A DNA stretch of 64,000 nucleotides. Source: Stenotrophomonas rhizophila (lineage in GTDB: Bacteria > Pseudomonadota > Gammaproteobacteria > Xanthomonadales > Xanthomonadaceae). The translations under genes were made by a program, and so were the position numbers. Shown here one piece after another: positions 1 to 12,870 of this stretch (position 1 is its first letter; each line of letters begins with the position of its first letter). The DNA lies in the NCBI RefSeq assembly GCF_000661955.1, contig NZ_CP007597.1, positions 4,425,228-4,489,227 of the forward strand, written 5' to 3'. The notes below the pieces were generated by a model. It was not told the origin of the DNA, ran no database searches, and was given only the letters and a program-made list of their open reading frames with translations.

Positions 1-1516
1 CAAGAAGGCGCTGGCCGACGCGGCACTGGCGACCGCCAAACGGCTGGGGGCCAGCTACTGCGACGTACGCATCGGCCGCTACCTCAACCAGTCGGTGATC
101 ACCCGCGAGGCGCAGGTGCAGAACGTCACCAACCGCGAATCGTCGGGCATCGGCATCCGGGTGATCGTCAACGGCGCCTGGGGCTTTGCCGCCACGCACC
201 AGCAGACACCGGCCGCAGTGAAGGCCGCGGTGGAACAGGCGGCCGCCATCGCCCGGGCCAACGCCGGCATCCAGACCCGTCCGGTCCAGCTGGCACCCGT
301 GCAGGGCGTGGGCGAGGTGAGCTGGAAGACGCCCATCCGCAAGAACGCGATGGCCGTGCCGATCCAGGACAAGGTCGACCTGCTGCTGAGCTTGAACGCC
401 GCCGCGCTCAATGCCGGCGCCAACTTCATCAACTCCACCCTGTTCCTGGTCAACGAACAGAAGTACTTCGCCTCCAGCGACGGCTCCTTCATCGACCAGG
501 ACGTGCACCGCATCTGGCTGCCGTTCACCGCAACCGCGATCGACAAGAGCAGCGGCAAGTTTCGCACGCGCGCCGGTCTGTCCTCGCCGATGGGCATGGG
601 CTACGAATTCCTGGACGGCGATGCCAGCGGCAAGATCGCCCTGCCCGGCGGCATCACCGCCTACCGTGATTCCTACGACCCGGTGGAAGATGCCATCGCC
701 GCGGCGCGGCATGCGCGCGAGAAGCTCAAGGCCCCGTCGGTCAAGCCGGGCAAGTACGACCTGGTGCTGGACCCGTCCAACCTGTTCCTGACCATCCACG
801 AGAACGTCGGCCACCCGCTGGAGCTGGACCGTGTGCTGGGCTACGAGGCGAACTACGCCGGTACCAGCTTTGCCACCCTGGACAAGCGCGACGCCGGCTA
901 CCGCTGGGGCAGCGAGCGGGTCAACTTCTTCGCCGACAAGACCGCCCCCGGCAGCCTGGGCGCGGTGGGCTACGACGACGAGGGGGTCAAGACCAAGCGC
1001 TGGGATCTGGTCAAGGACGGCATCCTGGTGAACTACCAGGCCACCCGCGACGAGGTACACATCCTGGGCGAGACCGAATCGCACGGCTGCAGCTACGCCG
1101 ATTCCTGGTCCAGCGTGCAGTTCCAGCGCATGGCCAACGTCTCGCTGGCCCCGGGCAAGACCCCGCTGAGCGTGGCCGACATGATCAAGGACGTGGAGAA
1201 CGGCATCTATATCCACGGCCGCGGCTCGTACTCCATCGACCAGCAGCGCTTCAACGCGCAGTTCGGCGGCCAGCTGTACTACCAGATCAAGAACGGCCAG
1301 ATCACCGGCATGGTCGAAGATGCGGCTTACCAGATCCGCACGCCGGAATTCTGGAATGCCTGCAGCGCGATCTGCGATGAACGCGACTTCCGCTTCGGCG
1401 GCTCGTTCTTCGACGGCAAGGGCCAGCCCGGCCAGGTATCGGCGGTGTCGCATGGCTCGTCGACCACGCGCTTTGATGGCATCAACATCATCAACACCGC
1501 GCGCAGCCTGGGATGA
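1..1516 (+). CDS. TldD family metalloprotease, 5'-truncated by window edge
   Basis: The reading frame is open from base 2, so the start lies upstream of the window. TldD proteins are zinc peptidases that usually work as a heterodimer with TldE on unfolded or modified peptides. The family metal-binding HExxxH motif is present as HENVGH, encoded at about 797-814, followed by the conserved PLELDRVLGYEANYAGTSF block. By eye about four of five residues match the next gene, so the two are tandem paralogues. That gene has a Tat signal; whether this one does cannot be seen. It ends 134 bp before its paralogue and heads the same-strand cluster. Confidence 0.9.
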   Translation, partial: KKALADAALATAKRLGASYCDVRIGRYLNQSVITREAQVQNVTNRESSGIGIRVIVNGAWGFAATHQQTPAAVKAAVEQAAAIARANAGIQTRPVQLAPVQGVGEVSWKTPIRKNAMAVPIQDKVDLLLSLNAAALNAGANFINSTLFLVNEQKYFASSDGSFIDQDVHRIWLPFTATAIDKSSGKFRTRAGLSSPMGMGYEFLDGDASGKIALPGGITAYRDSYDPVEDAIAAARHAREKLKAPSVKPGKYDLVLDPSNLFLTIHENVGHPLELDRVLGYEANYAGTSFATLDKRDAGYRWGSERVNFFADKTAPGSLGAVGYDDEGVKTKRWDLVKDGILVNYQATRDEVHILGETESHGCSYADSWSSVQFQRMANVSLAPGKTPLSVADMIKDVENGIYIHGRGSYSIDQQRFNAQFGGQLYYQIKNGQITGMVEDAAYQIRTPEFWNACSAICDERDFRFGGSFFDGKGQPGQVSAVSHGSSTTRFDGINIINTARSLG

Positions 1517-1546
1517 GCATGCCCTGCCCACCGTGCATTTCGTCAT

Positions 1547-1576
1547 TTGACGCCCCCTTCCGATGGCCGCAAGAAT
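1547..1576 (+). promoter_or_regulatory. possible sigma-70-type promoter before the second tldD
   Basis: TTGACG at 1547-1552 and AAGAAT at 1571-1576 are 18 bp apart, about 75 bp upstream of the TTG start at 1651. The -35 match is good and the -10 match moderate. It would give the second tldD and the genes after it their own promoter inside the cluster. This is inferred from sequence only. Confidence 0.3.
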
Positions 1577-1650
1577 CGGGGCCACCGCCCCGGCGGTCGC
1601 TGTGATGTCGCCGTTTCCCTGCCACCCCCACACCGACGTGGAGAGCTGCC

Positions 1651-3285
1651 TTGCAAAGACGTGACTTCCTCGCCCTCACCGGGCTTACCGCTGGCGGACT
1701 GATCGTGCCGTCATTCTTCGGCAAGGTGATCGCCGCCGAGCAGCTGCACAGCACGCTGGACCTGGGGCTGAAGAAGCGCCTGGCCGACGCCGCGCTGGCC
1801 GCTGCCCGCCAGGCCGGCGCCACCTACTGCGACGTCCGCATCGGGCGCTACCTGCGCCAGTTCGTGATCACCCGCGAGGACAAGGTGCAGAACGTGGTCA
1901 ACACCGAATCCACCGGTGTGGGCATCCGCGTGATCGTCAACGGCGCCTGGGGCTTTGCCGCCACCAACCAGCTGGGCACCGCCGACGTGGCGCGCGCCGC
2001 GCAGCAGGCGGCCGCCATCGCCAAGGCCAACTCGGGCGTGCAGACCGCGCCGGTACAGCTGGCCGCCGCACCCGGCGTGGGGGAAGTGAGCTGGAAGACC
2101 CCCATCCGCAAGAATGCGATGGACGTGCCGATCAAGGAGAAGGTGGACCTGCTGCTGGACGTCAACGCCGCGGCGATGGCCGCCGGCGCCAGCTTCGTCA
2201 ACTCGATGCTGTTCCTGGTCAACGAACAGAAGTACTTCGCCTCCACCGATGGCTCCTACATCGACCAGGACGTGCACCGCATCTGGGCTCCGATGACCAT
2301 CACCGCCATCGACAAGGCCAGCGGCAAGTTCCGCACCCGCGAAGGCCTGTCCGCGCCGATGGGCATGGGCTACGAATACCTCGATGGCGCCGCCGCCGGC
2401 AAGGTGCTCACCCCCAACGGGGTGGTCAACTACAGCTCCTCCTACGACATGAAGGAAGATGCCATCGCGGCGGCCAAGCAGGCGCAGGAGAAGCTGAAAG
2501 CACCGTCGGTGAAGCCGGGCAAGTACGACCTGGTGCTGGACCCCTCGCACACCTGGCTGACCATCCACGAATCGGTCGGCCATCCGCTGGAACTGGACCG
2601 CGTGCTTGGCTACGAAGCCAACTACGCCGGCACCAGCTTCGCCACCCTGGACAAGCGCGAACAGCACTTCCAGTACGGCAGCGACAAGGTCAACATCTTC
2701 GCCGACAAGACCCAGCCGGGCAGCCTCGGCGCGGTGGCCTACGACGACGAAGGCGTCAAGACCAAGCGCTGGGACCTGATCAGCGACGGCAAGCTGGTGG
2801 ACTACCAGACCATCCGCGACCAGGCCCACATCCTGGGCAAGACCGCCTCGGACGGCTGCTGCTATGCCGACTCCTGGTCCAGCGTGCAGTTCCAGCGCAT
2901 GGCCAATGTGTCGATGGCGCCGGGCAAAACCCCGCTGAGCGTGGCCGACCTGGTCAAGGACGTGGAAAACGGCATCTACATCATCGGTGACGGCTCCTTC
3001 TCCATCGATCAGCAGCGCTACAACGCGCAGTTCGGTGGCCAGCTGTTCTACGAGATCAAGAACGGCAAGATCACCCGCATGCTTGAAGACGTGGCTTACC
3101 AGATCCGCACGCCGGAATTCTGGAACGCCTGCAGCGCCGTGGCCGATGAACGCGACTACCGCCTGGGCGGTTCGTTCTTCGACGGCAAGGGCCAGCCGGG
3201 CCAGGTCTCGGCGGTCTCGCACGGGTCGTCCACCGCGCGCTTCAACGGCATCAACGTCATCAACACCGCACGCAGCCTCGGCTGA
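1651..3285 (+). CDS. Tat-exported TldD family metalloprotease (second copy)
   Basis: A 544-residue TldD-type zinc peptidase. The TTG start follows GGAG and gives an N-terminus MQRRDFLALTG, a twin-arginine (Tat) signal with a hydrophobic stretch to about residue 29. This predicts export of the folded protein, unlike the cytosolic E. coli TldD. The HExxxH motif is HESVGH at about residues 306-311. The TldE-like partner starts 21 bp after its stop, which suggests co-transcription and a heterodimer. The substrate is unknown; E. coli TldD/E matures microcin B17 and degrades CcdA. Function is by family; export is inferred from the signal. Confidence 0.92.
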   Translation: MQRRDFLALTGLTAGGLIVPSFFGKVIAAEQLHSTLDLGLKKRLADAALAAARQAGATYCDVRIGRYLRQFVITREDKVQNVVNTESTGVGIRVIVNGAWGFAATNQLGTADVARAAQQAAAIAKANSGVQTAPVQLAAAPGVGEVSWKTPIRKNAMDVPIKEKVDLLLDVNAAAMAAGASFVNSMLFLVNEQKYFASTDGSYIDQDVHRIWAPMTITAIDKASGKFRTREGLSAPMGMGYEYLDGAAAGKVLTPNGVVNYSSSYDMKEDAIAAAKQAQEKLKAPSVKPGKYDLVLDPSHTWLTIHESVGHPLELDRVLGYEANYAGTSFATLDKREQHFQYGSDKVNIFADKTQPGSLGAVAYDDEGVKTKRWDLISDGKLVDYQTIRDQAHILGKTASDGCCYADSWSSVQFQRMANVSMAPGKTPLSVADLVKDVENGIYIIGDGSFSIDQQRYNAQFGGQLFYEIKNGKITRMLEDVAYQIRTPEFWNACSAVADERDYRLGGSFFDGKGQPGQVSAVSHGSSTARFNGINVINTARSLG

Positions 3286-3306
3286 CCGGTCAGGAGCCTA
3301 CGAATC

Positions 3307-4641
3307 ATGAGTATCTTCACCGAAGCACAAGCCAAGGCCATCCTCGACAAGGTCATCGCGCTGTCCAAGGCCGATGAATGCACCGCCGTGCTGGCCGGCT
3401 CGATCAACGGCAACATCCGTTTCGCGCTCAACAACGTCTCCACCAGCGGCATCGTGGACAACACCGAACTGGCCGTCACCGTGGCCTTTGGCAAGCGCGT
3501 GGGCACCGCCTCGATCAACGAGTTCGACGATGCCGCGCTGGAACGCGTGGTGCGCCGCGCCGAAGACCTGGCCCGCCTGGCCCCGGAAAACCCGGAGTTC
3601 ATGCCGGCCATCGGCAAGCAGACCTACACCGCCAGCCCCACCTTCAGTGCGTCCACCGCCGCCATCGACCCGGCGTTCCGCGCCAAGGTCGCCGCCGACT
3701 CGATCGCCCCGTGCCGCGGCAAGGGCCTGATCGCCGCCGGCTTCCTGGAAGACGGCCAGGGCTTCTACGCCACCGCCAACAGCAACGGCAACTTCGGCTA
3801 CCAGCGCAGCACCAACTTCGATTACACCTGCACCGTGCGCACTGAAGATGGCCGCGGTTCGGGCTGGGTGGGTCGCAACCTCAAGGATGCCGCCGACTTC
3901 AAGGCCGACCAGGACATCCAGATCGCGATGCGCAAGGCCACCGAATCGCAGGAAGCCAAGGCGCTGGAACCGGGCAAGTACACGGTGATCCTGGAGCCGG
4001 CCGCCGCGGCGGGCCTGATCAGCTTCATGATGAATTTCTTCAGCGCGCGCTCGGCCGATGAAGGCCGCAGCTTCCTGTCCAAGAAGGGCGGCGGCAACAA
4101 GCTGGGCGAGCAGGTCTACGACCCGCGCGTGAACATGCATGCCGACCCGTGGCACCCCGAAGCCCCGGTGCTGCCGTGGGATGGCGAAGGCATGCCGCGC
4201 GGCAAGCTGCCGATCATCGAGAACGGCAAGGTCGCCAACCTGGAGTACACCCGGTTCTGGGCGCAGAAGCAGGGCAAGACCGCCAATGCCACCCCGGGCA
4301 ACCTGCTGATGAGCGGCGGCGACAAGAGCACCGCCGATCTGGTGCGTGGTACCCAGAAGGGCATCCTGGTCACCCGCACCTGGTACATCCGCATGGTCGA
4401 TCCGCAGACCGTGCTGCTGACCGGCCTGACCCGCGATGGCACCTTCTACATCGAGAACGGCCAGATCAAGTACCCGGTGAAGAATTTCCGCTTCAACGAG
4501 TCGCCGGTGATCATGCTCAACAACATCGAAGAGCTGGGCAAGCCGGTGCGCGTGGCCGGTGACGAGTCGAACTTCGTGATGATGATTCCGCCGATGAAAC
4601 TGCGCGATTTCACCTTCACCTCGTTGTCCGACGCGGTCTGA
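3307..4641 (+). CDS. TldE/PmbA-type subunit of a TldD/TldE peptidase
   Basis: A 444-residue protein of the TldD/PmbA family. It has the N-terminal and C-terminal family folds but no HExxxH motif, as expected of TldE, the non-catalytic partner that helps form the substrate channel. The ATG start has AGGAG nine bases upstream. There is no signal peptide at its N-terminus (MSIFTEAQAKAIL), although its TldD partner carries a Tat signal. It lies between tldD and the DUF4159 gene, with only 7 bp to the latter. Confidence 0.88.
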   Translation: MSIFTEAQAKAILDKVIALSKADECTAVLAGSINGNIRFALNNVSTSGIVDNTELAVTVAFGKRVGTASINEFDDAALERVVRRAEDLARLAPENPEFMPAIGKQTYTASPTFSASTAAIDPAFRAKVAADSIAPCRGKGLIAAGFLEDGQGFYATANSNGNFGYQRSTNFDYTCTVRTEDGRGSGWVGRNLKDAADFKADQDIQIAMRKATESQEAKALEPGKYTVILEPAAAAGLISFMMNFFSARSADEGRSFLSKKGGGNKLGEQVYDPRVNMHADPWHPEAPVLPWDGEGMPRGKLPIIENGKVANLEYTRFWAQKQGKTANATPGNLLMSGGDKSTADLVRGTQKGILVTRTWYIRMVDPQTVLLTGLTRDGTFYIENGQIKYPVKNFRFNESPVIMLNNIEELGKPVRVAGDESNFVMMIPPMKLRDFTFTSLSDAV

Positions 4642-4648
4642 TGCACGG

Positions 4649-5350
4649 ATGAACCGCGCGCAGTTCCTGCGCCTGCTGCTGGGCAGCGCCGCATTCGCGG
4701 CGTTGCCCTCACTGGCGCGCGCCCAGGCCGGTCGTTACGACTTCTGGTTCACCCGCCTCAAGTACGACTCCGGCGACTGGGACGTGGATGCGCGCATGCC
4801 GTCCAACGTGATCACCTCGCTGATCGATTACACCTCTTTGCGCGTGGACCCGACCGAGCATGTCATCGCCCTGTCCGACCCACGCATGCTGGAAGCCCCG
4901 TTCTGCTACCTGGCCGGGCACAAGCTGGTGGAGTTCAACGCCGCCGAGCGGCAGAACTTCGTGCGCTATGTGCGCAACGGAGGCTTCGTGTTCGTGGATG
5001 ACTGCAACCACGACATCGACGGCCTGTTTGCCAAGTCGTTCGAGGCGCAGATGGCCAAGCTGTTCGGCCCCAAGGCGCTGAACAAACTGCCCAACAGCCA
5101 CGCGCTGTACCGCAGCTTCTTCCGTTTCCCCGACGGGCCGCCCGCCACCGGCTTCGAGCTCAACGGCTGGGGCGATGACCTGGTGCATGACTACCTCAAG
5201 GGCATCGAGGTGGACGGCCGGCTGGGCCTGCTCTACAGCAACAAGGATTACGGCTGCGAGTGGGACTACGACTGGCGCAACAAGCGGTTCCTGGCCGAAG
5301 ACAACACGCGTTTCGCGGTGAACATCGTGATGTACGCGTTGAACAACTAG
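4649..5350 (+). CDS. exported DUF4159 domain protein
   Basis: A 233-residue protein. Residues 1-25 form a signal peptide ending in ALPSLARAQA; only one arginine is in the n-region, so Sec export is more likely than Tat. The rest matches the DUF4159 family, a Rossmann-like fold related to glutamine-amidotransferase-like domains, including the RNGGFVFVDDC segment. DUF4159 genes often sit beside MoxR/DUF58/BatA genes, as here. Its biochemical role is not established. It starts 7 bp after tldE, so translation is probably coupled. Confidence 0.82.
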   Translation: MNRAQFLRLLLGSAAFAALPSLARAQAGRYDFWFTRLKYDSGDWDVDARMPSNVITSLIDYTSLRVDPTEHVIALSDPRMLEAPFCYLAGHKLVEFNAAERQNFVRYVRNGGFVFVDDCNHDIDGLFAKSFEAQMAKLFGPKALNKLPNSHALYRSFFRFPDGPPATGFELNGWGDDLVHDYLKGIEVDGRLGLLYSNKDYGCEWDYDWRNKRFLAEDNTRFAVNIVMYALNN

Positions 5351-5365
5351 TTTCTTCCTGATTCT

Positions 5366-5390
5366 TCAGCCACGCATGGCGTGGCTCTAC
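5366..5390 (-). repeat. SMAG-type GTAG palindrome
   Basis: On the minus strand it reads GTAGAGCCACG, then CAT, then GCGTGGCTGA: a short hairpin with the GTAG head typical of Stenotrophomonas SMAG/REP elements. It fills the 61-bp gap between the DUF4159 and moxR genes and could cause partial termination or mRNA stabilisation there. Confidence 0.8.
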
Positions 5391-5411
5391 ATCGATTGAT
5401 GCGAGTGCCTT

Positions 5412-6395
<984 letters not shown>

Positions 6396-6402
6396 GCCCG
6401 CC

Positions 6403-7299
6403 GTGACGCTGCACGCCCCCATCGCCATTCCCGCCGACGTGCGCAGCCGCCTGAAGGCGCTGCGTCTGTTGCCGCGGCGTGCGCGGGGTGCGCACGGCAT
6501 CGGCCAGCATGCCAGCCGCAGCCGCGGTGCCGGGCTGGAGTTCGCGCAGTACCGCGCCTACGAGCCGGGTGACGAACTGCGCCAGATCGACTGGAAGCTG
6601 TACGCCCGCTCGGACCGCTTCTTCGTGCGCGAATCCGAACGCGAAAGCCCGATCACCAGCTGGGTGCTGGTGGACGCCAGCGCATCGGCCGCCCAGCACG
6701 ACCGCGCCCGCCCGGGCTGGTCGCGCCTGGACCACGCCTGCGCCACGGCCGCCTGCCTGGTCGAACTGGCCCTGCAGCAGGGCGACCGCTTCGGGGTGAT
6801 CGCCGTCAACGGCCACGGCGTGCAACTGATACCCGCTGGCAGCGGCCCGCGCCAGCGCGACCGCGTGCACCTGCTGCTGCGTCAGCTGCAGACCCACGGC
6901 GGCTGGCCACCCGCCGACAAGCTGCGCCCGGTATGGGAGCGCGTGCAGCCCGGCGACCTGCTGGTGGCCCTCGGCGATGGGTTCGACGCGGCCGGCACCG
7001 TGCTGCTGGAACGCTTGGCCGCCGCGCGCCGCGAGGTGCTGCAGGTGCAACTGCTGGGCGCCGACGAACGCGACTTCCCGTTCACCGACGGCCACCGCTT
7101 CCGCGATCCGGAAACCGGCGAGGAACTGCTGGGTGACGGGCGCGCCATCCGCGCCGATTACCTGGTCCGCTTCGCCCAGGCCCAGCGCGACCTGCAGGCA
7201 CGCCTGCACGCCAGCGGCATCGCGTATGCGGTGGGCTACCTGGACCAACCGCTGGATGCACCGCTGCGCCAGCTGTTCGGCCCGGGCGGCGGCGCATGA
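6403..7299 (+). CDS. DUF58 domain protein (VWA-like, MoxR partner)
   Basis: A 298-residue soluble protein with a GTG start 7 bp after moxR. It contains the DUF58 signature, GAGLEFAQYRAYEPGDELRQ followed by IDWKLYARSDRFFVRE, then a VWA-like region with a metal-site type sequence (WVLVDASASA). DUF58 proteins are standard partners of MoxR ATPases. The stop overlaps the next start (ATGA at 7296-7299), so translation is coupled. Confidence 0.9.
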   Translation: MTLHAPIAIPADVRSRLKALRLLPRRARGAHGIGQHASRSRGAGLEFAQYRAYEPGDELRQIDWKLYARSDRFFVRESERESPITSWVLVDASASAAQHDRARPGWSRLDHACATAACLVELALQQGDRFGVIAVNGHGVQLIPAGSGPRQRDRVHLLLRQLQTHGGWPPADKLRPVWERVQPGDLLVALGDGFDAAGTVLLERLAAARREVLQVQLLGADERDFPFTDGHRFRDPETGEELLGDGRAIRADYLVRFAQAQRDLQARLHASGIAYAVGYLDQPLDAPLRQLFGPGGGA

Positions 7300-8423
7300 G
7301 CCTGGCGCTGCTGTTCCCGCTGGGCCTGCTGGCGCTGGCTGCGTGGCTGGTGCCGTTGCTGATCCACCTGGCGCGCCGCCACCAGTACGCACCGCTGGAG
7401 TTTGCCGCCCTGCGCTGGCTGCGCGCCAAGGTACGGCCGCGCCAACGCGTTCGTTTCGACGAGTGGCCGCTGCTGCTGGTGCGCCTGGCGCTGCTGGCCG
7501 CCCTGGCGCTGCTGCTGGCGCGCCCGGTACTGCAGGGCAGCGCTGCCGACACGCATCCGGTGGTTGCGGTGGCCCCCGGACTGGACGTCGCCGCGCAGCA
7601 CGCACGGCAGCCGAACGCCGACTGGCGCTGGCTGGCACCGGGCTTCCCGCCGCTGGATCAGCCCGCCCCCACCGGCGCGCAGCCGCTGGCCAGCCTGCTG
7701 CGCGAGCTGGACCAGCAATTGCCTGCCGGCACCCCCTTGACCGTTTACGTGCCCGACCCAATGCCCGGCACGGACGCCGAGCGCCCGCGACTGTCGCGCA
7801 CCGTGCAGTGGCAACCGCTGGCGGCGGCCAAGCCGAGCCCGGCGCAGCCGACGGCACGCGCGCCGCGCCTGCACCTGGGCGTGGATGCCGATGCACAGGC
7901 GCAGCGCGTGTTCGATGCGGTGCAACGCGCCTGGAGCGCCGCGCCGATCGCAGCGGCCAACGCGGCCGTGCCCGGCAACGACGAGGTCGGCGTGTGGCCG
8001 TCCAACGCCCCGCTGCCACCGGCCTGGCAGGCCTGGCTGGCGGGCGGCGGCACAGTGCTGGGCAGCGCACCGGCGCCGCCCGGTGCGGCCGGGGTCGTGG
8101 TGCTGCGCGACGCGGAGGGCGCGGCGGTGCTCAGCGAATACCGCATCGGCAGCGGGCGTCTGCTGCGCTTCCACGCGGCAGTGTCACCGGCGGCGTCGCC
8201 GGGCCTGCGCGACCCGGAGTTCCCGCGACGGCTGCTGCAGCTGGTTCGTCCGGTCGCCGCGCCACAGTGGGTGGACGCGCGCGCGCACGCGCCGTTGCAG
8301 GGTGCCCGAGCGCCCACGCCGCAACCGCTGGACCTTGCACCGTGGCTGCTGGCATTGACCGTGCTGCTGTTCGCGCTTGAACGCTGGCTGGCCACATCGC
8401 CCCGGCGTGGGGGGACGGCATGA
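7296..8423 (+). CDS. BatA-domain membrane protein
   Basis: A 375-residue protein. The N-terminus has the BatA (N-terminal double-transmembrane) pattern: LLFPLGLLALAAWLVPLLIH, then a conserved RRHQYAPLEFAALRWLR segment, then a second helix (LLLVRLALLAALALLLARPV). A third hydrophobic segment lies near the C-terminus (LLALTVLLFALERWL). The long middle part is Ala/Pro-rich and probably periplasmic. ATGA overlaps join it to the genes on both sides. It is a likely membrane anchor for the MoxR/DUF58 module. Confidence 0.83.
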   Translation: MSLALLFPLGLLALAAWLVPLLIHLARRHQYAPLEFAALRWLRAKVRPRQRVRFDEWPLLLVRLALLAALALLLARPVLQGSAADTHPVVAVAPGLDVAAQHARQPNADWRWLAPGFPPLDQPAPTGAQPLASLLRELDQQLPAGTPLTVYVPDPMPGTDAERPRLSRTVQWQPLAAAKPSPAQPTARAPRLHLGVDADAQAQRVFDAVQRAWSAAPIAAANAAVPGNDEVGVWPSNAPLPPAWQAWLAGGGTVLGSAPAPPGAAGVVVLRDAEGAAVLSEYRIGSGRLLRFHAAVSPAASPGLRDPEFPRRLLQLVRPVAAPQWVDARAHAPLQGARAPTPQPLDLAPWLLALTVLLFALERWLATSPRRGGTA

Positions 8424-10600
8424 TCGCCGCCCTGCAGCAGCGCTGGCGGCAGGCACGCCGACGCCGGTGGTGGTCGACGCTGCTGCTGGCGTTGCCGCTC
8501 GCGTTGGGCGCCACGGCCGTGGCGTTGCGCCTGGGCGGGTTCGATATCGCCACGGTGGTGCTGCTGGTGGCGCTGCTGGCCGGCGCGGCACTGGCCACCT
8601 GGCGCAGCCGCCAGCTGGACCGGCGCTGGCTGGTACGCCAGCTCGACCGCCACGCCGCACTGCAGGACAGCGCCGACCTGCTGTTCGCGCCCGACGATGC
8701 GCTCAACCCCCTGCAGCGTCGGCAGCGCGCGCATGTCCACGCCGCGTTGCAGGCGCGAACGCCCGACCTGCGCGCGGCGTGGCCGCGCCGCGCCTTGCTG
8801 GTGGCCTGGCTGGGTGCGCTGGTGCTGATCGCGCTGGCACTGGGATGGCCGCGTACCAGCGGCGGCACCGCGCGCCCATCGTCGGCCACCGCCCCGCTTG
8901 CCACGCCCGCACAACCGCCCCGCCTGCAGTCCAGCCGGCTGGCGATCAACGCCCCGGCCTACACGGGGCAACCGGCCCGGGTGCAGAGCACACTGGATGC
9001 AAAGGTCGCGCAGGGCAGCGCGCTGCAGTGGTCGCTGCGCTTCAGCGCGCAGCCCAGCGAGGCCGTGCTGCAGTTCCACGATGGCCGCCGTGTCGCCCTG
9101 CGTCGCGAGGGCGACACCTGGACCGGCACATGGACCGCCGACCGCCCCGCGCTGTACCGCGTGGTCACCGTACCGGCGCTGGCAGGGCCACGCCTGTACC
9201 GCCTGGATGTGCTGCCCGACCAGCCGCCGCGCGTACGCGTGCTCGCCCCGGACCGCACGCTGGTGCTGGGCACGCCCGGGCAACGGCAGTGGGCGCTGCA
9301 GTTCGAGGCCAGCGACGACCACGGCGTGGCCGCCGATGCCCAGCTGAAGATCACCCTGGCCCAGGGCGGTGGCGAGAACATCACCTTCCGCGAACACACC
9401 CTCACCCTGGCCGGCAGCGGCACGCCCACGCTGCGCCGCTTCGCGCGCACGCTGGACCTGGCCGCGCTGGGTGCCGAGCCGGGCAACGATGTGATCGCCC
9501 AACTGCAGGTGCGCGACAACCGTGTGCCCACGCCACAGACCGCGCAGAGCACCAGCGTGATCCTGCGCCTGCCCAGCGTGGAGCAGGTGCAGGGCGCGGA
9601 ACTGGACGGCATGGTCAAGAAGACGTTGCCCGCCTACTTCCGCAGCCAGCGCCAGATCATCATCGACGCCGAGGCGCTGATCAAACTGCGTCGCCAGCTG
9701 CCTGCCGAAGAATTCATCAAGCGCGCCGATGCCATCGGCGTGGACCAGCGCATCCTGCGCCTGCGCTATGGCCAGTTCCTGGGCGAGGAGAGCGAAGGCG
9801 GCGCCAAGCCGCCGCCGACCAGCGACGCGCTGCCCACCAGCGACACCCCCACGGCCGATGCACACGACGACACCGATGCGCACGCGCATGCGCAGGCCGA
9901 AAAGAGCGACCACGCGCAGGCCGGCCATGACGGCCATGACCATGCAGGCGCCACACCGGAGGCACCGCCGGTGTTCGGCAGCGCCACCGACGTGCTGTCC
10001 GAGTACGGCCACACCCACGACCACGCCGAAGCCGCCACCCTGCTCGACCCGCAGACCCGCGCCACGCTGAAAGCCGCCCTGGACCAGATGTGGTCGTCCG
10101 AAGGCGAACTGCGCCAGGGCCGGCCCGAAGCCGCGCTGCCCTACGCCAACAAGGCCTTGGCCTTCATCAAGCAGGTGCAGCAGGCCGAGCGCATCTATCT
10201 GGCGCGGGTGGGTCCGGAACTGCCGCCCATCGATGAAAGCCGTCGGCTCAGCGGCGACCGCACCGACCTCGGCAGCCGCACCCTGCCCATCGCCGCGGTG
10301 CCCGCCCCCGAGCCGGCGATCGTGAGCGCCTGGCAACAGCTTGCCGACCCGGCCAGCACGCCCGACCTGGATGCCATCGCGCAGTGGCTGCAGCGCAACG
10401 ACAGCCGCCTGCCCGATCCGCTCAGCCTGGCCGCGGCCATCGAAGAGCTGCGGGTTGCACCGGACTGCGGCGAGTGCCTTGCGGTGCTGCGCGCGCGCCT
10501 GTGGCGGGCGTTGTCGCGGCCCAGTCCGCAGGTGTCGCGGCGCACGCCTCCCGATCGCATGGGCCAGACCTATCTGGATGCCCTGGAGGCCACGCGATGA
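8420..10600 (+). CDS. DUF4175-like large membrane protein with His-rich segment
   Basis: A 726-residue protein. Two transmembrane helices lie near residues 20-60 and a third near 125-145, followed by a long periplasmic region with beta-sandwich-like repeats. This resembles the DUF4175-type proteins of BatA/MoxR clusters, but the family assignment is tentative. Around residues 480-540 is a His/Asp-rich stretch with HAHA, HDGHDHAG and HTHDH clusters, a plausible metal-binding linker. ATGA overlaps join it to both neighbours. There is no obvious enzymatic motif. Confidence 0.68.
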   Translation: MIAALQQRWRQARRRRWWSTLLLALPLALGATAVALRLGGFDIATVVLLVALLAGAALATWRSRQLDRRWLVRQLDRHAALQDSADLLFAPDDALNPLQRRQRAHVHAALQARTPDLRAAWPRRALLVAWLGALVLIALALGWPRTSGGTARPSSATAPLATPAQPPRLQSSRLAINAPAYTGQPARVQSTLDAKVAQGSALQWSLRFSAQPSEAVLQFHDGRRVALRREGDTWTGTWTADRPALYRVVTVPALAGPRLYRLDVLPDQPPRVRVLAPDRTLVLGTPGQRQWALQFEASDDHGVAADAQLKITLAQGGGENITFREHTLTLAGSGTPTLRRFARTLDLAALGAEPGNDVIAQLQVRDNRVPTPQTAQSTSVILRLPSVEQVQGAELDGMVKKTLPAYFRSQRQIIIDAEALIKLRRQLPAEEFIKRADAIGVDQRILRLRYGQFLGEESEGGAKPPPTSDALPTSDTPTADAHDDTDAHAHAQAEKSDHAQAGHDGHDHAGATPEAPPVFGSATDVLSEYGHTHDHAEAATLLDPQTRATLKAALDQMWSSEGELRQGRPEAALPYANKALAFIKQVQQAERIYLARVGPELPPIDESRRLSGDRTDLGSRTLPIAAVPAPEPAIVSAWQQLADPASTPDLDAIAQWLQRNDSRLPDPLSLAAAIEELRVAPDCGECLAVLRARLWRALSRPSPQVSRRTPPDRMGQTYLDALEATR

Positions 10601-12423
10601 ATGACGCCGTCTGGATCGCGTCGGCACTGCTGGCCATCGTGCTGATCGGCAGCGTTCGCACGCTGCTGCAGCAGCGTCGCAACCGCACGCACGGTACCGC
10701 GCGCATCGTCGCGCTGCTGGTGCTGCAGGTCGGCGCGGCCGCACTGCTGTACCTCACCCTGCTGCCACCGCCGGTGCACATCGCCGCCCAGCGCCTGACC
10801 CTCCTGACCGGCCACGCGGCGGCCACATCGAACGCAGCCGGCGACGCCAGCGTGATTGCACTGCCGGAAGCCGCGGCGCGCAGCGGCACCCGCGTCGCGC
10901 CCGACCTGGCCACGGCATTGCGCCAGCACCCCGGCACGCAGGCCCTGGTACTGCAGGGCGATGGGCTGGTGGCGCGTGACCGCGACATCGCGCTGCCCCG
11001 GCAGGTCGCGCTGCAGCCTGCCGCCGCGCCCCGCGGCTGGGTCGCTCTGGAACCACCGGCCATCACCGTTCCCGGCGCACTGTTCACGGTGCGGGCGCGG
11101 GCCCAGGGCGTGACCGGTGCGCGCGCCGAACTGCTTGATCCGGCCGGCATCGTCGTGGACCGCGCCGCGCCCGGCCGCGATGGCAGCGTCGCGCTGGACG
11201 GCGTTGCCCGTGCCAGCGGCCGCAGCGAATTCAGCCTGCGCCTGCTCGACGCCGACAGGCACGTGGTGGATACCGTGCCCGTGCCATTGCAGACCGACGA
11301 CGCCCCCGGCGTGCGGGTGCGGGTGCTGGCCGGCGCCCCCACGCCGGAGCTGAAATACCTGCGCCGCTGGGCATCCGATACCGGCCTGGAGCTGCACGCC
11401 CAGGCCAGTGCGGGCGCCGGGGTGGTGCTCGGCGACGCACCCGTGGCCCTGACCGCCGCGCGTCTGGCCGCCACCGATGTGCTGATCCTCGATGAGCGCA
11501 GCGTGGCCGCGCTTGGCCCGCCCCAGCGCGCGGTCGTGCAGCAGGCACTGCGCGATGGCCTCGGCGTACTGGTGCGCAGCAGCGGCCCGCTCACTGATGG
11601 CACGCGGCAGACACTGCGCAACTGGGGCCTGGCGACAAGCGGCAGCAACCAGAGCCTGCCGCTGCGCCTGGCCGCCGATCCGGATCCTGCGCTGCTGCAG
11701 GCGCGGCGTGGCCCGCAGCGCGCGGCCAGCGCACCCACCGCCGCCATCGACGAAGCGGACAGCACCTCGCACAACGCCCCGTTGCCTGCGCTGGAGCAGT
11801 TCAACCAGCGCGCCCTGGATGCCACGCCGCTGCTGCGCGATGCCAACGGTGCCGCGCTGGGCGGCTGGCGCGATGTGGGCCGTGGTCGCCTCGCGCTGCT
11901 GCCCGTCACCGACAGCTACCGCCTGGTGCTGGCCGGCCGCGACGATCGTCATGCCGAGCTGTGGAGCAGCGTGGTGGCGACGCTGGCGCGCCCGCTGGCG
12001 ACCCCTGCATCGGTGCGCCTGGGCAGTGCCACGGCTTGGGCCGGCGAACGCATCGCGCTGTGCGCGCTGGCCGACGGCACCACCGTGCGCAGCCCGCAGG
12101 GCATCACGGTAGCGCTGCACATCGACCCGGATACCGCGGGCGACCGCTGTGCCGGCTACTGGCCGCAGCAGCCAGGCTGGCACCAGGTGCAGATGGGCAC
12201 ACGCACCCGGGCGTTCTACGTGTTCGACCCGGCGCGCGCGCAGGCCATGCACCGCCAGCAGACCCGCGATGCCACCGCGCTGCGGCTGGGCACTGCCACC
12301 GCCGCTTCGACCGCCGCGGTCGTTCCCGTGCCCGGCCCGCGCTGGCCGTGGCTGCTTGGCTTCCTCGTGGTGGCCGGCCTGCTGTGGTGGTTGGAGCGTT
12401 GGCGCCCGCGCGGCACACCGTAA
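10597..12423 (+). CDS. uncharacterised membrane protein, last gene of the TldD-MoxR cluster
   Basis: A 608-residue protein starting at the ATG of an ATGA overlap. Longer in-frame extensions upstream lie inside the preceding gene and are rejected. Two helices lie near the N-terminus (about residues 5-22 and 35-55) and one near the C-terminus (WPWLLGFLVVAGLLWWLERW). The middle looks periplasmic and includes a segment resembling the amidotransferase-like domain found at the end of such clusters (LAATDVLILDERSVAAL). No catalytic residues can be assigned. It is probably the last member of the envelope complex. Confidence 0.65.
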   Translation: MNDAVWIASALLAIVLIGSVRTLLQQRRNRTHGTARIVALLVLQVGAAALLYLTLLPPPVHIAAQRLTLLTGHAAATSNAAGDASVIALPEAAARSGTRVAPDLATALRQHPGTQALVLQGDGLVARDRDIALPRQVALQPAAAPRGWVALEPPAITVPGALFTVRARAQGVTGARAELLDPAGIVVDRAAPGRDGSVALDGVARASGRSEFSLRLLDADRHVVDTVPVPLQTDDAPGVRVRVLAGAPTPELKYLRRWASDTGLELHAQASAGAGVVLGDAPVALTAARLAATDVLILDERSVAALGPPQRAVVQQALRDGLGVLVRSSGPLTDGTRQTLRNWGLATSGSNQSLPLRLAADPDPALLQARRGPQRAASAPTAAIDEADSTSHNAPLPALEQFNQRALDATPLLRDANGAALGGWRDVGRGRLALLPVTDSYRLVLAGRDDRHAELWSSVVATLARPLATPASVRLGSATAWAGERIALCALADGTTVRSPQGITVALHIDPDTAGDRCAGYWPQQPGWHQVQMGTRTRAFYVFDPARAQAMHRQQTRDATALRLGTATAASTAAVVPVPGPRWPWLLGFLVVAGLLWWLERWRPRGTP

Positions 12424-12540
12424 CCCGGCACGCTGCCCGCACAGCCACCATCCGCCACAACGTGCGCTCCGTTTCTGCATGCCATGACTGCCTCGTGCAA
12501 ACTACCTGCGCACTGCACACCAAGGACAGGTCACGCATAC

Positions 12541-12870
12541 ATGGAAAAGCCATCGAAAACCCCCTCCCAGCGTACGCAGCTGATCGCCTCAGTGCTGCTC
12601 CTCTCCGTGCCACTGCTGCTGGTGGGCGGGCTGCTGCTGCGCGACCATGTGGCCAAGCAGCGTCAGCGTGAATTCGCTGCGCAGATGATGGCGATGCAGG
12701 TGGCCGACGGCCAGCGACGCCAGCAGGCCATCATCCAGGCGCTGGAAGCGGCTGCACAGCCCGCGCCGATCGCGTCAGTTGAACAGCCCGATGCCGAGCC
12801 GATGACGTTGCAGGCGGTGACCGTCACCCCCGATGCCGGGTACAGCCCACCGCCACCGCCGCCGCGCTGA
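12541..12870 (+). CDS. small single-span membrane protein, unknown function
   Basis: A 109-residue protein. The ATG at 12541 is preferred over upstream starts because AAGGACAGG lies before it and the protein then begins directly with a short basic segment and one transmembrane helix (LIASVLLLSVPLLLVGGLLL). A charged, Gln/Arg-rich helical part follows, and the protein ends in a Pro tract (SPPPPPPR). No known family was recognised. It lies 117 bp downstream of the TldD-MoxR cluster and may be separate from it. Confidence 0.6.
   Translation: MEKPSKTPSQRTQLIASVLLLSVPLLLVGGLLLRDHVAKQRQREFAAQMMAMQVADGQRRQQAIIQALEAAAQPAPIASVEQPDAEPMTLQAVTVTPDAGYSPPPPPPR

Follow-up and report, generated by a model that had tools for sequence, protein, structure and literature searches.

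A conserved gene cluster joining TldD/TldE paralogues to a MoxR/DUF58 module in Stenotrophomonas rhizophila and other bacteria

We analysed a 64,000-nucleotide stretch of the Stenotrophomonas rhizophila genome (contig NZ_CP007597.1, positions 4,425,228 to 4,489,227; hereafter the window), at the start of which nine same-strand open frames encode two TldD-like proteins (TldD-1 and TldD-2), a TldE-like partner, a DUF4159 protein, a MoxR-type AAA+ ATPase, a DUF58 protein, a BatA-like membrane protein and two further membrane proteins (gene 8 or Mem8, and gene 9 or Mem9). An earlier note, made from the sequence alone, had described two TldD and a TldE joined to a MoxR/DUF58 module and three membrane proteins, a composition borne out by the frames and by Pfam, with genes 8 and 9 recognised by their transmembrane (TM)-like segments. 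The conserved set comprises eight gene kinds, TldD being present here in two copies. The cluster is a real, conserved unit, and its type of TldD co-occurs with the module across phyla.

Gene content and layout of the cluster

TldD-1 (positions 2-1516; all nine genes lie on the + strand) is cut by the window edge, with its C-terminal 504 amino acids (aa) inside the window and a GTG start 113 bases upstream (L006:12116); it carries the leader MQRREFLTLSGMGLAGL, which resembles a twin-arginine translocation (Tat) signal, the motif HENVGH and an Asp that replaces Cys454. TldD-2 (1651-3285; 544 aa) starts with TTG and has the Tat-like leader MQRRDFLALTGLTAGGL, HESVGH at residue 306 and Asp511 at the third-ligand position. 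The TldE-like partner (3307-4641; 444 aa) is without HExxxH, and no signal peptide was seen in it. Next come the type I DUF4159 protein (4649-5350; 233 aa), with a leader-like N-terminus, the conserved motifs DDCNHD, GWGDD and CEWD and a relationship to PDB entry 4i66, the MoxR-type ATPase (5412-6395; 327 aa) and the DUF58 protein (6403-7299; 298 aa), which has a GTG start, reads DASAS at its DxSxS motif and is without a TM-like segment. The BatA-like protein (7296-8423; 375 aa) combines the TIGR02226 N-terminal double anchor with one C-terminal TM-like segment and is followed by gene 8 (8420-10600; 726 aa) and gene 9 (10597-12423; 608 aa), the latter with two N-terminal TM-like segments and, by eye, a hydrophobic C-terminal stretch. 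Pfam matches exceeded the curated cut-offs for genes 1-3 (TldD/PmbA), DUF4159, the MoxR-type protein (AAA_3 at 209.8 bits and AAA_lid_2 at 59.7 bits), DUF58 and BatA. At an expectation value (E) of 0.01, no Pfam or NCBIfam family was matched by gene 8 or gene 9.

The earlier note had also spoken of many ATGA overlaps. Overlaps of four bases (ATGA) do join DUF58 to BatA, BatA to gene 8 and gene 8 to gene 9, but these are only three of the eight junctions, the other five being gaps of 7 to 134 bases. Because a methyltransferase-like frame, recognised by eye, lies upstream of TldD-1 on the opposite strand (L006:11353-12009), the operon probably starts with TldD-1. The sole promoter-like match in the scanned stretch, a bare consensus match, falls in the 134-base gap between TldD-1 and TldD-2.

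Because the genome has a separate canonical tldD/tldE pair (G000:C1:1385576 and 1387792, about 3 Mb off on the contig), the TldD and TldE of the cluster are additional paralogues. Their best scores do not reach the NCBIfam equivalog cut-offs, with 129.8 against 635 for TldD and 53.4 against 438 (PmbA) for TldE. They share with E. coli TldD/TldE (MEROPS M103; PDB 5nj5) the TldD/PmbA domains, an HExxxH in TldD only and the adjacency of tldD and tldE, and differ from them in the Tat-like leader, the Asp for Cys454, the scores below the equivalog cut-offs and the joined MoxR module. The association between tldD/tldE and the module put forward in the earlier note concerns the TldD type of the cluster; the canonical pair stands apart.

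Co-occurrence of the TldD type with the module

We searched samples of 61 genomes of the order to which S. rhizophila belongs, 249 genomes of Pseudomonadota and 198 of Bacteroidota. DUF4159 was found in 20 of the 61 order genomes, and all 18 genomes with more than two TldD/PmbA matches were among those 20; none of the 41 DUF4159-negative genomes had more than two. The two exceptions (G004 and G019) hold only a distant type II DUF4159 and no TldD cluster, and extra TldD and type I DUF4159 occur in the identical 18 of 61 genomes. When 20 stretches round DUF4159 were fetched in the order, 16 contained tldD, tldE, DUF4159, moxR and DUF58, with genes 8 and 9 where the contig reaches, in a core order with small departures: the BatA-like protein is without a score in L039 and L046, TldE lies between two TldD in L037 (which ends in gene 8), L041 has two TldE and in L044 TldE precedes TldD. 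The other four stretches (L035, L047, L048 and L049) hold the different DUF4159 type. A short locus on a 4 kb contig outside this fetch (G045) combines MoxR and DUF58 with a type I DUF4159; this locus and the copy in the window bring the count to 18 genomes. Because six families in the order hold both carriers and non-carriers, as counted with no tree, the module and the TldD genes seem to come and go jointly, gained and lost together and not by shared descent alone.

To look across phyla, an alignment of 15 TldD (A1) was used with one genome per species, and 78 distinct loci were taken from the best 80 of 581 confirmed candidates, a non-random sample with Microbulbifer, Alteromonas, Colwellia, Massilia, Pseudoduganella, many Bacteroidota and one contig of a Thermoanaerobaculia (Acidobacteriota) metagenome-assembled genome. 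MoxR and DUF4159 lie within the fetched stretch in 66 of the 78 TldD loci, in agreement with the earlier statement that such clusters occur in other genomes; three loci show DUF4159 before the contig ends, and nine have neither. Eight of the genomes behind these nine were searched, and all eight hold DUF4159 elsewhere; in the type I loci read from five of them, MoxR, DUF58 or TldE lies beside it.

Relatives of TldD-2 (E ≤1e-40) occur in 11 of the 249 Pseudomonadota genomes and type I DUF4159 (E ≤1e-8) in six, which are the genomes whose best TldD is at least 72% identical and of which four are also in the order sample; in the other five, TldD is 30-43% identical and has Cys as its ligand, and the fetched stretch contains no module. 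The Bacteroidota sample has TldD (E 1e-40) in 20 of 198 genomes, type I DUF4159 (E 1e-35) in 18 and gene 8 (E 1e-160) in 18, and the same 18 genomes are common to TldD (best match at least 65% identity), DUF4159 and gene 8, the next best gene 8 match dropping to 1e-28. At least one of TldD, DUF4159 and gene 8 is on another contig in G390, G436, G444 and G448, and no TldD was found within 20 kb round DUF4159 in G390, G436 and G448. No genome in the three samples has type I DUF4159 without this TldD type. Separate tldD/tldE and moxR-DUF58, which the earlier note had named as the outcome that would speak against it, is therefore not the rule for this TldD type, whose co-occurrence with the module is perfect in the order and in Pseudomonadota, near-perfect in Bacteroidota and seen also where the genes are unlinked. 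Because vertical descent alone could produce them, the distance correlations among six operon proteins (0.74-0.94 over 75 loci) were given no weight.

The gene set could also be read as an ordinary Bat-like stress module with tldD and tldE as unrelated passengers, and there are MoxR-DUF58 neighbourhoods without TldD (L035, L047 and L048) that would fit. Against this stand the co-occurrence in three samples, the presence of both states within six families, the retention of the genes together even when they are unlinked and a linkage that survives rearrangement in L132, L143 and L150, where the order is changed and the genes are still close. Chance or passenger linkage was rejected on this co-occurrence, and the Bat-like explanation, already disfavoured, is extremely improbable. 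Bat (Bacteroides aerotolerance) operons are defined by VWA-type BatA/BatB, TPR and BatD proteins, a set that the cluster lacks: genes 7-9 match no VWA or TPR family in Pfam or NCBIfam, and only the BatA/TIGR02226 N-terminus matches. MoxR, DUF58 and the BatA-type N-terminal anchor are common to both; the cluster differs in having no VWA/TPR match in its membrane proteins and in the added TldD, TldE and DUF4159. In the account given in PMC3557215, bat deletion in Leptospira had no oxidative phenotype.

The four type II DUF4159 loci (L035, L047, L048 and L049) have MoxR/DUF58 nearby in three cases, as the cluster does, and differ from it in that no TldD lies within the fetched stretch. With the type I query or profile, three of them score 22-47 bits and L035 is not found. 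Both types are held by G016 (L039 and L048) and G034 (L046 and L049), with type I beside the TldD cluster and type II apart.

A passage in PMC7688217 describes what is apparently the same operon (a match by description) as uncharacterised and lowered in Stenotrophomonas biofilms, and no other description was found in the open-licence PubMed Central literature. The gene set is widely conserved and, apart from this apparent mention, previously unstudied.

Leaders, metal site and membrane proteins

We compared 144 TldD rows, corresponding to 142 distinct genes, and 30 Bacteroidota TldD loci that include at least one repeat of a gene from the earlier set. The His, Glu and His columns of HExxxH are kept in all 144 rows. 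As third metal ligand, Asp stands in 144 of 144 rows and likewise in each of the 30 Bacteroidota loci, G315 and G475 included, whereas five of five unlinked TldD-like proteins have Cys. The canonical TldD of the window's own genome has Cys and lies apart from any such module. E. coli TldD, as described in the text of PMC5810440, has the metal ligands His262, His267 and Cys454, with zinc or iron possible, and is active only with TldE; the same source states that Asp may stand in for Cys in some TldD, e.g. Gemmatimonas.

An RRxF-type motif is found at the TldD start in 142 of 144 rows, the exceptions being the window-truncated copy and L150 (KRK), and the 30 Bacteroidota leaders comprise, by eye, 23 with RR and 7 with RK. 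TldD is a predicted Tat substrate, its RRxF[LI]-type leader being followed by a moderately hydrophobic stretch. For the most hydrophobic 15-residue segment near the start, the median value is 1.5 in TldD versus 0.59 in TldE, and a cut-off of 1.6 is passed by 45 of 144 TldD and by none of 126 TldE. HExxxH is absent from all 126 TldE frames, and no leader was found in any of them; an RR pattern near the start occurs in nine, never before a hydrophobic stretch: it precedes the probable ATG, belongs to the first helix (EARRI) or comes from the misread L044 frame. The earlier note had called both proteins exported, which the leaders make plausible for TldD but not for TldE on its own.

Because the five Cys-type TldD-like frames are without a Tat-like leader and G315 and G475 have an Asp-type, Tat-type TldD without the module, the pattern of residues suggests that the Asp ligand goes with export and not with MoxR; a thiol ligand is perhaps unsafe outside the cytoplasm. 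Asp as a mark of the MoxR link was rejected on these two genomes, and TatC was useless as a discriminating partner, since 197 of the 198 Bacteroidota genomes have it, as does the genome of the window. At L115, L127, L134 and L144, two or three tldD copies, together with their tldE, precede one DUF4159-MoxR module, which suggests client expansion without machine expansion.

GxPGxxKT occurs in 86 of 86 MoxR frames, 27 of which fit the strict Walker A pattern. DUF58 adjoins moxR, and DxSxS, a motif of the MIDAS type expected of a VWA-like partner, is found anywhere in 69 of 81 DUF58 frames. The TM-like segments span residues 5-23, 57-75 and 343-361 of the BatA-like protein, 21-39, 41-59 and 125-143 of gene 8 and 4-22 and 36-54 of gene 9. 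By our own reading of the positive-inside rule, the large part of gene 8 would face outwards. Besides the three TM-like segments, the model of gene 8 (mean predicted local distance difference test score, pLDDT, 79; predicted TM-score, pTM, 0.48) has a beta-sandwich region, a stretch with pLDDT below 50 at residues 459-541 and then helices. This low-confidence stretch is the His-rich acidic loop (9824-10042, + strand; residues 469-541), which is probably periplasmic and holds the conserved HxH formed by H531 and H533 (YGHTHDHAEAATL).

H533 is invariant and H531 nearly so in an alignment of 35 gene 8 proteins. Of 75 gene 8 frames, 71 reach at least five His within 40 residues; the remaining four are L126 and L127, which are truncated ahead of the loop, and the genuine exceptions L097 (3) and L150 (2). 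The means for the other seven families are 1.6 to 3.2, with single frames up to 8, all counts being made on stop-to-stop frames that may extend beyond the gene. Against PDB, profile searches with genes 7, 8 and 9 gave nothing better than E 0.2. The fold search with gene 8 gave 114 matches at E ≤0.001, and those listed are mostly immunoglobulin-like or similar sandwiches with a TM-score ≤0.14 by query length.

A proposed maturation model and its alternatives

MoxR ATPases are common and, to our knowledge, few have a known client. The best fit among the readings that we weighed, with a probability of about 45%, is that MoxR and DUF58 belong to a maturation machine whose client is an exported TldD/TldE. 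In such a model, TldD, with its Tat-like leader and its HExxGH...Asp metal site, would pair with the leaderless TldE in the cytoplasm, and the folded pair would leave via Tat with TldE riding on TldD. MoxR and a DUF58 adaptor would act from the cytoplasm on the inner-membrane BatA-like, gene 8 and gene 9 proteins, whose outward parts, including the His-rich loop of gene 8, would insert metal into TldD/TldE or otherwise activate it, with DUF4159 as a further soluble partner. What is observed are the gene content and order, the co-occurrence across phyla, the Tat-like leaders of TldD, the change from Cys to Asp and the His-rich loop; export, hitch-hiking, topology, physical contact, metal transfer and the substrate are what we infer here. 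The narrower proposal that TldE, together with leaderless DUF4159, hitch-hikes via Tat and that MoxR/DUF58 force drives metal from a periplasmic His-rich donor in gene 8 into an Asp site safe from thiol oxidation is unlikely.

Related pairings are known, CoxD/CoxE being similar to NorQ/NorD. As with NorQ/NorD, the gene of the MoxR-type ATPase adjoins that of a candidate VWA-like partner, and the operon also encodes a metalloenzyme; by analogy its putative client would be an exported peptidase, and it differs in having DUF58 in place of the large NorD and in its three membrane proteins. In the mxa methanol dehydrogenase cluster, mxaR is MoxR, mxaS is DUF58-like, mxaC is BatA/VWA-like and mxaACKL have a role in calcium insertion. 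There, too, the enzyme genes come first, followed by mxaR, S, A, C, K and L, and the cluster studied here differs in being without methanol dehydrogenase, cytochrome and PQQ (pyrroloquinoline quinone) genes. Methylobacterium mxa genes include mxaR, mxaS, mxaA, mxaC, mxaK and mxaL (listed in PMC6414531), and the roles of MxaR and MxaS are described as unsettled in a passage of PMC9728263. As reported in PMC13036017 and PMC9976466, the nitric oxide reductase encoded in the same gene cluster requires NorQ (MoxR-type) and NorD (VWA) to receive its iron, with remodelling of the NorD linker.

Several observations weigh against the maturation model. His-rich loops also serve storage or sensing, and Tat clients usually take up their metal before export, which fits poorly with a periplasmic donor. 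G315 and G475 hold an Asp-type, Tat-type TldD (53% and 49% identity, respectively) with TldE and have no DUF4159, gene 8 or nearby module; because of these two genomes, this TldD class can exist without the module, which weighs against a strict need for it. The leader-like start that DUF4159 shows in the window and in most rows from Gammaproteobacteria is not evident in Massilia (L104), Acidobacteriota (L097) and several Bacteroidota rows, and DxSxS is missing from 12 of 81 DUF58 frames, including four of the window's genus. In two TldD paralogues, L171 (G461) and L185 (G307), the active-site helix has HESVAH in place of HESVGH. E. coli TldD/E is active, as stated in PMC5810440, though the E. 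coli control gave no match to DUF4159 or DUF58. The earlier note had the link right and suggested a reasonable mechanism, and its interpretation as a whole is partly supported. Its hypothesis that the ATPase may load metal draws indirect support from the gene 8 loop and from the NorQ/NorD precedent (PMC13036017), while G315 and G475 count against it.

A different arrangement would make the same parts a feeding machine, in which TldD/TldE, outside the membrane, would trim peptides or envelope proteins delivered or unfolded by MoxR/DUF58 together with the three membrane proteins, a form of envelope proteolysis and not of enzyme maturation. According to PMC10885120, unstructured peptides are threaded by E. 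coli TldD/E, independently of their sequence, into a channel that is narrow, and a partner presenting unfolded substrate would make sense beside it; AAA+ rings are remodellers (so described in PMC13036017), and several genomes have two or three tldD copies and one module. However, neither MoxR nor DUF58 has a leader whereas TldD is apparently exported, so ATP-driven work would need to cross the membrane, and no channel-like protein was seen, gene 8 having three TM-like segments. We regard substrate feeding as somewhat unlikely.

The DUF4159 protein bears on a further possibility, that TldD/TldE is no general peptidase but a hydrolase dedicated to a modified peptide or a small molecule, that DUF4159 is a second enzyme and that MoxR only assembles the complex. 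The family reportedly includes N-deacetylases, going by the title of a 2022 study by Vobruba. Many residues of DUF4159 are invariant, the protein resembles PDB 4i66 (sequence E 1.3e-10; fold E 2.7e-12), and its model shows weaker likeness to gamma-glutamyl hydrolase and to glutamine amidotransferase or ThuA-like folds; against the proposal, all likeness beyond 4i66 has E above 0.001. The 25 largest clusters of 5,643 unassigned frames (at least 40 aa, 97 loci) contain no conserved biosynthetic or precursor family, which also argues against it, and a cluster of the ribosomally synthesised and post-translationally modified peptide (RiPP) type with a conserved precursor was dismissed on the same frames. 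The widest of these clusters belong to common superfamilies, by eye a PAS-like sensor (14 loci), an ABC-type ATPase (8) and a dehydrogenase (6), and some of them span phyla. A dedicated hydrolase of this kind is quite unlikely.

In Pseudomonadota, in Bacteroidota and on one Acidobacteriota contig, one MoxR module is thus accompanied by a peptidase whose fold and metal chemistry are known. Because this TldD is bound to the module in linked and unlinked genomes alike, client and machine are directly testable. Maturation of this kind would also add an exported branch, with a metal site of its own, to the TldD/TldE family and would assign a role to DUF4159 and to two nameless families.

Around the cluster, a same-strand frame of 128 aa (window 12484-12870) lies right after gene 9 and has, by eye, one hydrophobic stretch and no Pfam or NCBIfam match. 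Upstream of the window (L006:9605-11352), a helix-turn-helix-type regulator frame is followed by a 426-aa HipA-like frame in what looks by eye like the arrangement of HipBA toxin-antitoxin pairs. The genome has four further DUF58 matches (G000:C1:958759-960661, with two within 2 kb, 168526 and 3509130), and it may hold other MoxR/DUF58-type modules.

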